Assembly: GCF_013249045.1 (NCBI RefSeq)
Contig: NZ_JABRWP010000002.1
Coordinates: forward strand, 434,001 to 498,000
Reading direction: 5' to 3'
Origin: Winogradskyella eckloniae
GTDB taxonomy: Bacteria > Bacteroidota > Bacteroidia > Flavobacteriales > Flavobacteriaceae
Length of the DNA stretch: 64,000 bases
Shown piece by piece: positions 20,788 to 63,724 of the stretch. Position numbers and translations under genes: made by a program. The notes beneath the pieces are model-generated. The model saw only the letters and a program-made list of their open reading frames with translations. It ran no database searches and was not told the DNA's origin. How positions within the stretch are numbered: position 1 is the stretch's first letter; each line of letters opens with the position of its first letter.

Positions 20788-20864
20788 TTTGTCATTCCTG
20801 CGAAGGCAGGAATCCACAATAAATACAGTAAAAAGTAGATTCCTGCTTTCGCAGGAATGACAAA
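20788..20864. repeat. inverted pair of R1 palindromes between mraY and murD
   Basis: Left copy 20788-20814 and right copy 20838-20864 are 27-base inverted copies with one mismatch. Each is itself a hairpin with CCTGCGAARGCAGG at its centre. The spacer is 23 bases. The same paired arrangement occurs between murD and ftsW at 22317-22384. Confidence 0.85.
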
Positions 20865-22316: not shown

Positions 22317-22384
22317 GTCATTCCTGCGAAAGCAGGAATCCACAATAAGATAAACAATTAGATTCCTGCCTTCGCAGGAATGAC
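22317..22384. repeat. inverted pair of R1 palindromes between murD and ftsW
   Basis: Left copy 22317-22340 and right copy 22361-22384 are inverted copies of the mraY-murD palindrome, with a 20-base spacer. The right copy ends in AATGAC, which creates an in-frame ATG at 22380 five codons ahead of the likely ftsW start. Confidence 0.85.
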
Positions 22385-57852: not shown

Positions 57853-57857
57853 TGCGG

Positions 57858-58304
57858 AACTTGAAGTCGAATTTGAAGTTGAATTTAAAAAAGAAGAATG
57901 AAAGAAAATAAATTTGATTTAACAGAGCGACTAGAAAATTTTGCAGCTGCAATTATTATCCTGTATGATAAAAAACCATTGTCTTATGCTGGAGATTATT
58001 TAGCAAAACAACTTATTCGTTCTTCCTGTTCTTCCGCTTTAAATTATGGCGAAGCTTTAGGTGCAGGAACAAGTAAGGATAAAATAAATAAACTAAGAAT
58101 TTCTTTAAAGGAATTGAGAGAGAGTCAAAGAAACTTGAATATCCAATCTAAGGCTCAATTATTTTCAGAAGAAAGTCTTTCAAATTTAAAAGACGAAAAT
58201 GACCAATTAATAAGAATCATGGTCACTAGAATTAAAAACATTAATTAGATTTTTTTGAATTCGAGTGCGTTTTCAACTTCGACTTCAATTTCAAATTCAA
58301 TTTA
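57858..58304. mobile_element. candidate four-helix-bundle cassette 1 with inverted borders
   Basis: Left border (57858-57893) contains GAAGTCGAATTTGAAGTTGAA and then TTTAAAAAA. Right border (58250-58304) is an imperfect inverted copy containing TTTTTTGAATTCGAG and TTCAACTTCGACTTCAATT. Both are built from GAAGTTGAA/TTCAACTTC units. The interior holds one ORF (57898-58248). No transposase is present and no target duplication is obvious. Confidence 0.55.
57898..58248 (+). CDS. four-helix-bundle (23S rRNA IVP/bAvd-type) protein, copy 1
   Basis: A 116-residue all-helical protein of the family named after ORFs in 23S rRNA intervening sequences, and related to the accessory protein bAvd of diversity-generating retroelements. 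Signature features are FDLTERLENFAAAIIILY, a basic LAKQLIRSSCSSALNYGEALGA segment with alanine-rich packing, and KLRISLKELRESQRNL. Family members form barrel-like oligomers with a basic surface and may bind nucleic acid; function is unproven. It is inserted between paaB and paaC. Confidence 0.85.
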   Translation: MKENKFDLTERLENFAAAIIILYDKKPLSYAGDYLAKQLIRSSCSSALNYGEALGAGTSKDKINKLRISLKELRESQRNLNIQSKAQLFSEESLSNLKDENDQLIRIMVTRIKNIN

Positions 58305-59645: not shown

Positions 59646-59778
59646 CATCCTGAACTAGTTTCAGGATCTCATCAATAGTAGAAATATACGTCAGTTCAAG
59701 TGAATTTGCGTTTTTGCAATTTTGTATTGAGAACCTAAAATAAAATTGTGTTTTGTCATTCCTGCGAAGGCAGGAATC
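59646..59778. repeat. three different palindromic repeats between paaD and paaG
   Basis: A hairpin with ATCCTGAAC/GTTTCAGGAT arms is at about 59647-59667. A GTCAGTTCAAGTGAATTTGC ... TATTGAGAACCT element covers about 59691-59735. An R1 hairpin copy, GTCATTCCTGCGAAGGCAGG and onward, is at 59755-59778. Only 19 bases then remain before the paaG ATG. No ORF of note lies in the 163-base gap. Confidence 0.65.
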
Positions 59779-59797: not shown

Positions 59798-60580
59798 ATG
59801 AGTAAAAGCATTCTTTTAAAAGTAGAAAATAAAATAGCGTACATCACGCTAAACAGACCAGAAGTATTTAATAGTATAAATAGAGAAATGGCATTTCTAT
59901 TTCAAGATACTTTAGATGCTTGCGAAATAAATTCAGAAATTAGAGCCATTGTAATCACAGGAGCAGGAAAAGCATTTGGTGCTGGTCAAGATTTAAAAGA
60001 AGTTACAGATCCAGACTTAAATCCTGGTTTCAAAAAAATATTAGACGAGCATTATAATCCAATAATAACAAAAATCCGAGCGATTAAAAAACCAATTATA
60101 GCCGCAGTAAATGGCGTTGCAGCAGGAGCAGCAGCAAATATTGCATTGGCTTGTGATATTGTTGTTGCACATGAAAAAGTGAATTTTATTCAAGCATTTA
60201 GTCTAATAGGCTTAATTCCAGATAGTGCTGGAACCTATTTTTTGCCAAGATTAATAGGGTTTCAAAAAGCACAAGCATTAGCCATGTTGGGCGATAAAAT
60301 TTCTGCAGGCGAAGCAGAAAAAATGGGAATGATTTATAAAATGATTCCATTGGAAAGCTTTGAAGAAGACGTAAATAAGCTCGCTTTAAAATTAGCAAAC
60401 ATGCCAACTTTAGCCTTAGGAAAAATTAAAGAAGCATTCAATGCGTCATTAACCAATACTTTAGAACAACAATTGGCTTTAGAGTCTAAATTACAGATAG
60501 AAGCAGCAAGTACTAACGATTATGCCGAAGGCGTTGCTGCATTCATTGAAAAAAGAAAACCAAATTTTAAAGGGAACTAA
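59798..60580 (+). CDS. paaG: enoyl-CoA hydratase/isomerase, probable PaaG
   Basis: Crotonase-fold enzyme, probably the 1,2-epoxyphenylacetyl-CoA isomerase. Its 260 residues include the oxyanion-hole AGQDLKE (about residues 66-72), NGVAAGAAANIALACD, and IPDSAGTYFLPRL, whose aspartate in this position is typical of PaaG-type isomerases. The upstream in-frame start at 59753 gives MSFLRRQEST, which is only the translated R1 palindrome, so ATG 59798 is used. PaaF hydratase activity cannot be excluded by sequence alone. Confidence 0.9.
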   Translation: MSKSILLKVENKIAYITLNRPEVFNSINREMAFLFQDTLDACEINSEIRAIVITGAGKAFGAGQDLKEVTDPDLNPGFKKILDEHYNPIITKIRAIKKPIIAAVNGVAAGAAANIALACDIVVAHEKVNFIQAFSLIGLIPDSAGTYFLPRLIGFQKAQALAMLGDKISAGEAEKMGMIYKMIPLESFEEDVNKLALKLANMPTLALGKIKEAFNASLTNTLEQQLALESKLQIEAASTNDYAEGVAAFIEKRKPNFKGN

Positions 60581-60593
60581 AATTATTAACGTG

Positions 60594-61051
60594 AGTATTG
60601 TCCCCTTGAGGGGACTTTAGGGGTGTTTTTGTTTAGAATAAAAGCGCTACAATATAGAATGAAAAACAAAATAATTCCATACAATTCAAAATTAAAAGAA
60701 TACGCTAGAGCACTAAGAAAGAATAGTACTTTGGCGGAAGTGTTGTTATGGGAAAATATTAAAAACAAAGCATTAGGAGTGCAATTTCACAGACAAGTCC
60801 CAATGTTAGATTATATCGTAGATTTTTATTGTCATGAATTAATGTTGGCGATAGAAATAGATGGGAATTCTCATGATTTCAGATATTTTGAAGATGCAAA
60901 AAGACAGAATAAACTAGAAAATGAAGGTGTAGAGTTTATACGATTTTCTGACTTAGATGTAAAGAACAATATGTTTAGTGTTTCATTATCTTTAGAGGAA
61001 AAGGTAAAAGAATTGAAAACACCCCTAAAGTCCCCTCAAGGGGACAATACT
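60594..61051. mobile_element. DUF559 cassette with perfect 36-bp inverted ends
   Basis: The bases 60594-60629 and 61016-61051 are exact reverse complements over 36 positions; the left copy begins AGTATTGTCCCCTTGAGGGG and ends TTTAGGGGTGTTTT. Each end is itself a CCCCTTGAGGGG hairpin. The 386-base interior holds the DUF559 reading frame, which continues through the right end. A third, 35-base copy lies at 62017 and a broken one at 23683. No target duplication is evident. Confidence 0.8.
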
Positions 61052-62008
61052 AATCAGGAAAATAAAGTTGAATCTTTGAAGGAAGAATTAACTGAAACCC
61101 ATAATAGAATAAAACCTTTTATTCACAAAACACCAGTATTAAGTTCTAGCTTAATAAATGAAATGGTTGGAACAAACGTTGTGTTTAAATGCGAGAACTT
61201 CCAAAAAATGGGAGCGTTTAAAATGCGAGGAGCAACAAACGCGATTTTATCCTTTTCTGATGAGGAAAGACAAAACGGAGTCGTAACACATTCTTCAGGT
61301 AATTTTGCACAAGCGGTTTCATTAGCAGCATTAAAATTAGCCGTGAAAGCTTATATTGTAATGCCGGAAAACGCACCGCAAGTCAAAAAAAATGCAGTTA
61401 AAACTTATGGAGGAGAAATTATAGAATGTGAATCCACACCAAAAGCAAGGGAAGCTACTGCGAATAAAATAAAAGAAGAAACGGGAGCTTCGTTTTTGCA
61501 TCCATCCAATCAAGATGAGGTCATTTATGGCAATAGTACAGCAGCTATGGAATTGCTTGAGGAATATCCAGATTTAGATGTGATTTTAACGCCAGTTGGA
61601 GGAGGTGGACTCATTGCAGGAACAGCTTTGGCAGCACACTATTTTTCAAACAATTGTAAAGTTATTGGTGGAGAACCGATGGAAGCTGATGATGCGTATC
61701 GTTCTTTAATTTCAGGTAAAATAGAAACAAATGATAGTTTTTATACAATAGCAGATGGCTTAAGAACACATTTGGGTGATCGTAATTTCCCAATTATTCA
61801 AAAGCATGTGGATAAGATTATTCGTGTTGAAGAAGATGAAATTATAAATGCTATGAAATTGATTTGGGAGCGCATGAAGATTATTGTAGAACCTTCATGC
61901 GCAGTCCCATTTGCAGCAGTGTTAAAGAATAAGGAAGAATTTAAAAATAAGAACGTCGGCATTATTTTGTCGGGCGGAAATGTAGATGTAATAAACCTAC
62001 CATTTTAA
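60659..62008 (+). CDS. fused ORF: DUF559 nuclease-like domain + PLP threonine/serine dehydratase
   Basis: Single 449-codon frame from ATG 60659. Residues 1 to about 118 form a DUF559/Vsr-like PD-(D/E)xK domain (LRKNSTLAEVLLWENIKNK, YIVDFY, AIEIDGNSHD). Residues about 121-132 (TPLKSPQGDNTN) are encoded by the right inverted repeat. From about residue 140 it is a fold-type II PLP enzyme of the threonine dehydratase/serine racemase group, with the PLP lysine in GAFKMRGA (residue 188), SSGNFAQA, GGGGLIAG and ILSGGNVD. No ATG precedes the dehydratase; an in-frame TTG at 61076 could give it separately. Fusion or split translation is unresolved. Confidence 0.85.
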   Translation: MKNKIIPYNSKLKEYARALRKNSTLAEVLLWENIKNKALGVQFHRQVPMLDYIVDFYCHELMLAIEIDGNSHDFRYFEDAKRQNKLENEGVEFIRFSDLDVKNNMFSVSLSLEEKVKELKTPLKSPQGDNTNQENKVESLKEELTETHNRIKPFIHKTPVLSSSLINEMVGTNVVFKCENFQKMGAFKMRGATNAILSFSDEERQNGVVTHSSGNFAQAVSLAALKLAVKAYIVMPENAPQVKKNAVKTYGGEIIECESTPKAREATANKIKEETGASFLHPSNQDEVIYGNSTAAMELLEEYPDLDVILTPVGGGGLIAGTALAAHYFSNNCKVIGGEPMEADDAYRSLISGKIETNDSFYTIADGLRTHLGDRNFPIIQKHVDKIIRVEEDEIINAMKLIWERMKIIVEPSCAVPFAAVLKNKEEFKNKNVGIILSGGNVDVINLPF

Positions 62009-62016
62009 AGCGTCTG

Positions 62017-62051
62017 AGTATTGTCCCTAGAGGGGACTTTAGGGGTGTTTT
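62017..62051. repeat. solo R2 repeat after the dehydratase
   Basis: AGTATTGTCCCTAGAGGGGA followed by CTTTAGGGGTGTTTT. It is in the same orientation as the left end of the DUF559 cassette with one base less and small differences. It starts 8 bases after the dehydratase stop and has no partner nearby. Confidence 0.75.
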
Positions 62052-63287: not shown

Positions 63288-63724
63288 GGTATTAGAAAAT
63301 AAGAATTAGGCATTAGTATGAAAAGTGATTATCATTTTAAATTCGAAGATTTATTAATATATCAAAAGGCTATGGATTTTGGAGAAATAGTAGATGTATT
63401 AGTGAAAAATTTCCCTAATCATGAACTTTATGCCCTTTCATCACAATTTAGAAGAGCAGCAGATTCTATAGCTTTAAATATAGCGGAAGGTTACCCAGGT
63501 TCTGATGCGCAATTTGTAAAGCATATTAATCATGCAATTCATAGCGCTAATGAATGCGTAAGTTGTAGTTCAAAAGCAAAAAGGAGAAAGTATATTAGCT
63601 TTGAAGAGAATGAAAATAATCGAAAATTAATTTCTGAATTAACAAAAATGATGTCCTCATTAAGGAAGAAAATTTTAGAACGAAATACGAAAAACTAATC
63701 CCTAATACCAAAAAACTAATGCCT
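63288..63724. mobile_element. candidate four-helix-bundle cassette 2 with nested inverted borders
   Basis: Outer arms GGTATTAG (63288-63295) and CTAATACC (63702-63709), and arms AGGCATTAGT (63308-63317) and ACTAATGCCT (63715-63724), are exact reverse complements in pairs. They surround one ORF (63318-63698). The left arm abuts the ORF ATG, and the right arm contains the ATG of the following thioesterase. No transposase is present. Confidence 0.55.
63318..63698 (+). CDS. four-helix-bundle (23S rRNA IVP/bAvd-type) protein, copy 2
   Basis: A 126-residue helical protein of the same family as the 57898 gene but clearly divergent from it. It has FKFEDLLIYQKAMDFGEIV, then the ELYALSSQFRRAADSIALNIAEGYPG helix pair and ISELTKMMSSLRKKI. 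The FRRAADSIALNIAEG block is the family hallmark. It is the second member of this family in one operon, here between paaH and paaI. Confidence 0.87.
   Translation: MKSDYHFKFEDLLIYQKAMDFGEIVDVLVKNFPNHELYALSSQFRRAADSIALNIAEGYPGSDAQFVKHINHAIHSANECVSCSSKAKRRKYISFEENENNRKLISELTKMMSSLRKKILERNTKN

Follow-up and report, generated by a model that had tools for sequence, protein, structure and literature searches.

We believe the DUF559 gene described here is probably, though by no means certainly, one copy of a selfish element that spreads in a homing-like manner and does not splice: a DUF559 endonuclease gene lying between inverted palindromic repeats. It is found in a stretch of 64,000 nucleotides from Winogradskyella eckloniae (the window), where it is read in frame into a pyridoxal-phosphate dehydratase. 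Elements of this kind appear to reside in the reading frame of conserved host enzymes, either inside the protein or fused to its end, and seemingly they are not spliced out. Going by their reading frames, the fusions would be functional and unspliced; cleavage by DUF559 and movement of the cassette are likewise what the sequences suggest. The wider claim is that DUF559-palindrome cassettes make up a selfish class found throughout the phylum, one that would home, would persist as permanent in-frame unspliced domains or fusions of housekeeping enzymes, nuclease and host enzyme being produced as one protein, and would use its palindromes for ectopic mobility, DUF559 perhaps being one of the missing mobilisers of those REP-type repeats for which no transposase is known. 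We would put the chances of this wider claim at about even.

It is useful to begin with the anatomy of the cassette. The gene order is an enoyl-CoA hydratase, DUF559 between its two repeats, and the PALP dehydratase. The hydratase gene upstream is paaG-like (59798..60580, + strand). The left repeat (60594..60629, + strand) is REP-like, with a hairpin, GTCCCCTTGAGGGGAC, and a tail, TTTAGGGGTGTTTT, that faces the interior of the cassette. The right repeat (61016..61051, - strand) is its exact inverted copy, and each 36-nt arm is thus a short perfect hairpin plus a conserved tail. The original prediction had noted these exact inverted ends and the in-frame fusion of the DUF559 frame they enclose to the dehydratase; both hold, the arms lying 386 nt apart. 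The fused frame (60623..62008, + strand; 461 aa counted from GTG) has in-frame starts at GTG 60623, TTG 60629 and ATG 60659, and it runs through the right repeat, where it reads KTPLKSPQGDNT, with no stop. Pfam finds a DUF559 domain at residues 23-121 (PF04480; 60689..60985, + strand; E 1.8e-25; 89.4 bits against a curated cut-off of 20.6), a relative of the Vsr/EDxHD-like endonucleases with the presumed active-site residues present, and a PALP domain at residues 164-451 (PF00291; 61112..61975, + strand; E 4.6e-74). The same scan of the frame gave MTES_1575 below its cut-off and no match to the Y1 transposase of RAYTs (PF01797). The top NCBIfam model for the dehydratase is BhcB, at 411 bits, below its cut-off of 550. 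Between the right repeat and the enzyme, at the position of the ancestral start, is a linker (61052..61111, + strand) that contains an in-frame TTG at 61076. A third, slightly degenerate copy of the repeat (62017..62051, + strand) lies immediately 3' of the dehydratase.

The arms are members of a multicopy REP-like repeat family, which follows from their hairpin and tail, the 24 copies in the genome, the inverted pairs and the third copy in the window. The 24 copies are counted on the 24-nt core at up to 3 mismatches. The reversed pattern does not occur in the whole genome and the core did not occur in 100 shuffles of the window, so a chance palindrome is ruled out. Several of the genomic copies are arranged as tail-out inverted pairs with a common spacer. 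The same repeat adjoins a second DUF559 gene of this genome, whose frame is broken by one TAA. REPtrons are recognized by a gene that lies between inverted palindromes with many copies in the genome, and this arrangement is found in the window cassette and likewise in other genomes. The window also holds a second palindrome family, GTCATTCCTGCGnnnGCAGGAATC, as two inverted pairs and one single copy (20791-20861, 22317-22384 and 59755-59778).

The dehydratase site can be compared across the genus in a sample of 60 genomes, 57 of which have a dehydratase match and 54 a close orthologue. The cassette is present in 13 of the 54, all recognised by their open frame, and absent in 41; the frames are 444-472 aa long with DUF559 in front and 311-334 aa without it. 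Of the 41 empty junctions 39 were read. In 15 of these the hydratase stop lies no more than 10 nt from the point where the dehydratase match begins; in 23 the gap is 44-100 nt, and in G075 it is 513 nt. Other short repeats occur in several of these wider gaps, and in some relatives copies similar to the GTCATTCCTGCGnnnGCAGGAATC palindrome occupy this gap. Two genomes (G023 and G065) were left out of the junctions and the trees, which therefore cover 52 of the 54 orthologues. The original prediction read the cassette as a minimal mobile unit. The empty sites in 41 of 54 orthologues argue for that reading, as does the presence of its type of repeat beside other DUF559 genes, and we infer mobility from them. 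It also proposed that the insertion had captured the start of the dehydratase. The linkers of the 13 fusions vary in length. In nine of them no ATG, GTG or TTG occurs after the repeat-coded peptide and ahead of the core of the enzyme, which supports the proposal; the other four do contain such a codon, among them the fusion in the window (TTG 61076). Since most of the fusions have no enzyme start of their own, the element is hard to delete.

Presence of the cassette at the dehydratase site is scattered. The dehydratase tree requires 11 changes and the hydratase tree 12 (52 sequences each; shuffled mean 11.8), and supported branches alone force 4 and 5 of them, respectively. Much of this patchiness could have its source in ordinary homologous exchange and losses. 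One might still argue for a single old and stable fusion, specific to the dehydratase, with the repeats beside it by chance. The 13 fused DUF559 domains do form one clade among the inserted copies (standalone copies are not counted and may fall inside it), and the frame has been kept. However, close relatives lack the cassette, a minimum of 11 changes is needed, the divergence of the cassette is out of step with that of the host genes, and DUF559 is inserted in other enzymes as well. The close relatives without the cassette and its patchy presence rule out a stable ancient fusion in our opinion, and we regard any reading of this sort as extremely improbable.

The history of the cassette and that of its hosts are easiest to compare through distances. 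In one pair of genomes (G014 and G076) the dS of DUF559 is 0.15 against 0.69 and 0.73 in the two host genes, and a cassette seems to have passed from one species to another in the recent past. Over 78 pairs the nucleotide distances of DUF559 and the dehydratase have a rank correlation of 0.16 (p 0.16); for the two host genes against each other it is 0.39 (p 0.0005). The DUF559 part of the fusions is under purifying selection, with a median dN/dS of 0.06 in the 49 of 78 pairs with computable dS, alongside 0.07 and 0.06 in the two host enzymes. The close relatives G014 and G002 have outer flanks up to 98-100% identical, but their cassettes are only about 71-87% identical. Seven close pairs of a filled and an empty site have mean identities of 91 and 85% over the 300 nt nearest the site on the hydratase side, 87% over the nearest 150 nt on the dehydratase side, and 92-95% farther out, whereas 12 empty/empty pairs are flat at 94-96% with no dip. 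As a sign of co-conversion these dips are suggestive only, because the seven pairs have genomes in common. The dips are also not confined to the cassette site, since G014 and its cassette-free relative G032 differ near the third repeat 3' of the dehydratase as well as beside the site.

The window had been taken to hold a single captured gene. Instead, the dehydratase is one of many enzymes with a DUF559 insertion. DUF559 is matched in 171 of 296 genomes across the Bacteroidota. Pfam scans of 30 frames and the window place it in frame, within or at the end of 27 host families, where several of the frames end at a locus boundary and any host name finer than a Pfam family is our interpretation. 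The hosts include repair-type proteins (RecG, RecJ, UvrA and UvrD/AddA-like), synthetases and other enzymes (LeuS, IleS, ValS, MetH, methylmalonyl-CoA mutase, PurL-like, HisF and HemF), and a further assortment: guanylate kinase, Ham1, MazG, aldehyde dehydrogenase-MaoC, DegT aminotransferase, glycoside hydrolase 31, peptidase M23, N-formylglutamate amidohydrolase, HsdR, HsdM, four more restriction/methylase types and the PALP dehydratase. By BLAST the 68 long-frame instances of our first collection fall into 19 host groups. The instances used for flanks and trees were picked partly for long frames, so the share of insertions among them is not a frequency. LeuS, HsdR and MetH have inserts at more than one place, and those at one place in MetH are found in several families. 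One MetH frame (L305) carries two separate inserts. In one further instance (L203) part of the host frame reads N.

On the DUF559 tree the host labels take 20 changes, where 15 is the minimum and shuffled labels take about 48. RecG inserts, like the dehydratase inserts, form one clade among the inserted copies, and MetH, LeuS and HsdR take 3, 2 and 3 changes; the deeper branches are weak because the alignment is short (120 columns). This grouping by host gene resembles that of intein alleles, and it is an argument for supposing the insert to be a cryptic self-splicing intein or intron. Yet Pfam matches no intein family in the window (E up to 0.001) or in the 30 other frames (E up to 1e-6). No intron family was matched at gathering thresholds in 126 kb from eight sources, where only a tRNA was found; the sources were the window and loci with RecG, MetH, IleS, RecJ, guanylate kinase, LeuS and mutase inserts. 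On these grounds we reject self-splicing as a very improbable explanation of the cassette.

The inserted copies look like working nucleases and not like debris, judging by the presumed catalytic residues they keep and by the profile matches of DUF559. A profile built from 38 diverse DUF559 domains matches PDB entry 3hrl (E 1.9e-35), as well as 3r3p, labelled 'Mobile intron protein' (E 2e-7), which we take to be I-Bth0305I. Of the inserted copies 66 of 67, and of the standalone ones 42 of 43, have all of E24, D52, E63 and H69 (110 of 113 instances, with X-containing sequences and exact duplicates left out), and the window copy is not an exception. By comparison, conservation in the median column of the inserted set is 48%. 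For a second set, described below, no conservation figure is given because its search pattern included part of the active site. The sole inserted copy with an altered catalytic residue (L064, in G072) has V for E63. The available part of one paper, in a section on inteins, assigns a DUF559 gene to the EDxHD family (PMC9403480).

DUF559 might instead be a useful accessory domain for repair or defence that is kept for the host, its patchiness coming from loss and homologous recombination. The strong purifying selection (dN/dS 0.06) would be expected under this argument, and several hosts work in repair or restriction (RecG, RecJ, UvrA, UvrD-like, HsdR and HsdM). The part available to us of a study on Caulobacter adds that its DUF559 protein VsrA, for which a role in mismatch repair is proposed, must be present for a methylase mutant to mount its DNA damage response, and that overexpressing it in the wild type does not trigger that response (PMC12907096); the overexpression result counts against the homing-like reading. 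The RecG inserts are a further argument for an accessory domain. The third DUF559 of this genome sits inside recG, where the insert takes the place of a few codons just ahead of the conserved MTATPIPRT motif. Of 64 genomes of the genus with a RecG match, 17 have the insert (847-889 aa), 45 do not (700-741 aa) and two could be assigned to neither group. On a RecG tree (30 loci of the 64 genomes) the filled genes are clustered, with 3 changes against a shuffled mean of 5.5; this is the pattern expected from vertical descent and is unlike the scatter at the dehydratase. Closely related hosts can carry different RecG cassettes (G031 against G000 and G081), which amounts to cassette turnover, and a comparison of close hosts gave no clear dip in the flanks of the RecG insert. 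An AlphaFold model from the RecG-DUF559 alignment (mean pLDDT 55.5, pTM 0.29) was kept out of the evidence.

A nuclease has no evident use, however, in MetH, LeuS, IleS, ValS, HisF, HemF, guanylate kinase or the dehydratase, and the accessory argument must also face the palindromic ends on many inserts and the scattered presence at the dehydratase site. In the repair and restriction proteins a nuclease that serves the host is possible; in synthetases and metabolic enzymes it is difficult to envisage. We think it distinctly unlikely as a general account, and return to the homing-like element, whose palindromic ends are taken up next.

Inverted complementary flanks are found at 59 of 111 DUF559 genes, related copies in these counts being non-independent. 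The score that defines them is reached by 20 of 1947 windows shifted within these loci and by 9.7% of permuted flank pairs. Long frames (36/68) and standalone genes (23/43) are alike, and 52 of the 111 fall below the threshold. This set is the 111 of 113 instances with 200 nt on either side, and it includes all 13 dehydratase fusions, with their one repeat type. A second, named set has inverted flanks at 39 of 77 genes compared to 43 of 3808 shifted windows; it comprises the 77 of 79 instances with 200 nt on both sides and overlaps the first in at least two loci (L259 and L289). Here 14 of 16 standalone genes have such flanks and 25 of 61 long frames, the other 36 long-frame copies, including all nine RecG inserts, being below the threshold. 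The repeat sequences themselves differ by lineage. A different type of hairpin pattern is absent from this genome but has 39, 21, 7 and 5 sites in four others; its reversed control has none, and in G254 its copies bracket two DUF559 genes.

These flanks can also be read with DUF559 in a lesser role: RAYT (Y1) transposases would move the palindromic repeats in trans, and DUF559 would be a passenger or would land beside repeats. Repeat number does not settle the matter. At least three repeat copies are present in 20 of 20 genomes with window-type DUF559 and 13 of 40 without it, but repeat number follows Y1 genes too. Among genomes without window-type DUF559 it differs between those with and without Y1 (p 0.00015), and among genomes without Y1 it differs between those with and without DUF559 (p 0.00018); both labels were assigned from match tables, and the Y1 set was widened between the repeat counts and these p values. 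On supported branches DUF559 and repeat number could be compared in only five independent pairs, with no significance. We do not take repeat number to prove that the repeats are moved by DUF559, because it tracks Y1 and the independent branches are too few; RAYTs could therefore move them. It is also in favor of RAYTs that this genome has a Y1 domain in frame with HemF, an enzyme that carries DUF559 in two other genomes. On the other side, inverted flanks accompany DUF559 genes in lineages with different repeat sequences, five genomes without a Y1 match have window-type DUF559 and 3-16 repeats, and a passenger would leave the intact catalytic residues of inserted copies unexplained. All in all, we think it unlikely that RAYTs account for the cassette.

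A few details belong with these counts. The HemF case of this genome (G000:C10:50905-51246, L107) is a RAYT-like Y1_Tnp domain read in frame into HemF, which was recognised by eye. Y1 matches in frames of 492-532 aa occur in 16 other genomes of the genus. The two genomes with DUF559 at the front of HemF are represented by L215, from Pfam, and L219, from its similarity to L215. One genome (G006) has 24 repeat copies, several of them clustered (L168 and L169), with no DUF559 match and one Y1 match that contains a stop.

If the homing-like reading is right, the nuclease would cut the empty allele and repair would then copy the cassette into the cut, the flanks sometimes being co-converted along with it. 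The palindromes would perhaps act as ends, or as short homology, for rarer jumps to new genes. The cassette would persist because its host cannot do without the enzyme and the reading frame stays open. It had been suggested that the DUF559 protein may act on its own repeat; the data agree with homing to a host site no less well than with repeat cutting.

To our knowledge the Rickettsia palindromic elements (RPEs) carry no enzyme gene, whereas the DUF559 insert carries a nuclease. They are alike in being palindromic DNA in frame in protein genes, as the available part of one paper describes the RPEs (PMC3733652). Inteins with homing endonuclease domains share several features with the cassette: they are in frame in conserved genes, have empty alleles, group by site and contain an internal nuclease. 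Unlike them, the DUF559 cassette has no detected splicing domain, has inverted palindromic ends, and is also fused at protein ends. REPtrons, which are RAYT genes flanked by REP palindromes, are similarly small genes between multicopy inverted palindromes (PMC3733652, PMC3116915, in the parts available). As with the cassette, some of their repeats are inside genes, but the gene is a Y1 transposase where the window cassette has DUF559 (PMC3733652, same part). Both REPs located within genes and REPs that lack a dedicated transposase have already been described (PMC3733652, same part). I-Bth0305I, an EDxHD homing endonuclease, is a relative of DUF559 by profile (3r3p), but it is encoded in a mobile intron according to the accessible text of PMC3943268.

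There are precedents for homing without splicing in ShiLan (PMC11855218) and the WHO elements (PMC7282813), each paper being available in part. ShiLan, in a phage methylase, is open in frame with its host gene, shows a homing-like pattern and, in the portion of that paper available, has no support for splicing; it differs in that its nuclease is an HNH in another reading frame and its hosts are phage methylases, where DUF559 is in the host frame of many cellular enzymes (PMC11855218). The WHO elements at FBA1 of yeast home without protein splicing and are tied to a housekeeping gene, but they are eukaryotic, their nuclease is intein-related, and the 3' end of the gene is replaced at each integration (PMC7282813, same part). 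The open-access literature, searched by titles and abstract openings and with subscription journals largely outside its scope, gave no DUF559 cassettes with palindromic ends and no in-frame DUF559 insertions, nor anything that combines DUF559 with REP or with inverted repeat.

It is important to realize what would follow if this reading is true. Many Bacteroidota would have nuclease parasites, never removed, inside their aminoacyl-tRNA synthetases, RecG and methionine synthase. This would contradict the view that a homing insertion in an important protein has to splice. A common family of 'unknown function' would gain a role, and the REP-type palindromes that have no transposase a candidate enzyme. 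It would explain odd fused annotations as well, and yield permissive insertion sites in many enzymes.

Several side observations should also be noted. Two genomes each have two nearly identical standalone DUF559 genes, separated by about 1 kb (L152 in G072 and L153 in G079). Two 23S rRNA-intervening-sequence (four-helix bundle) genes (57898-58248 and 63318-63698) lie amid the phenylacetate-type genes of the window, and the first is bracketed by inverted repeats at 57857-57883 and 58272-58298 (27 nt, 81%). Relatives of DUF559 are also encoded on 68 viral contigs (L330-L397), and 38 plasmid records were collected alongside them.
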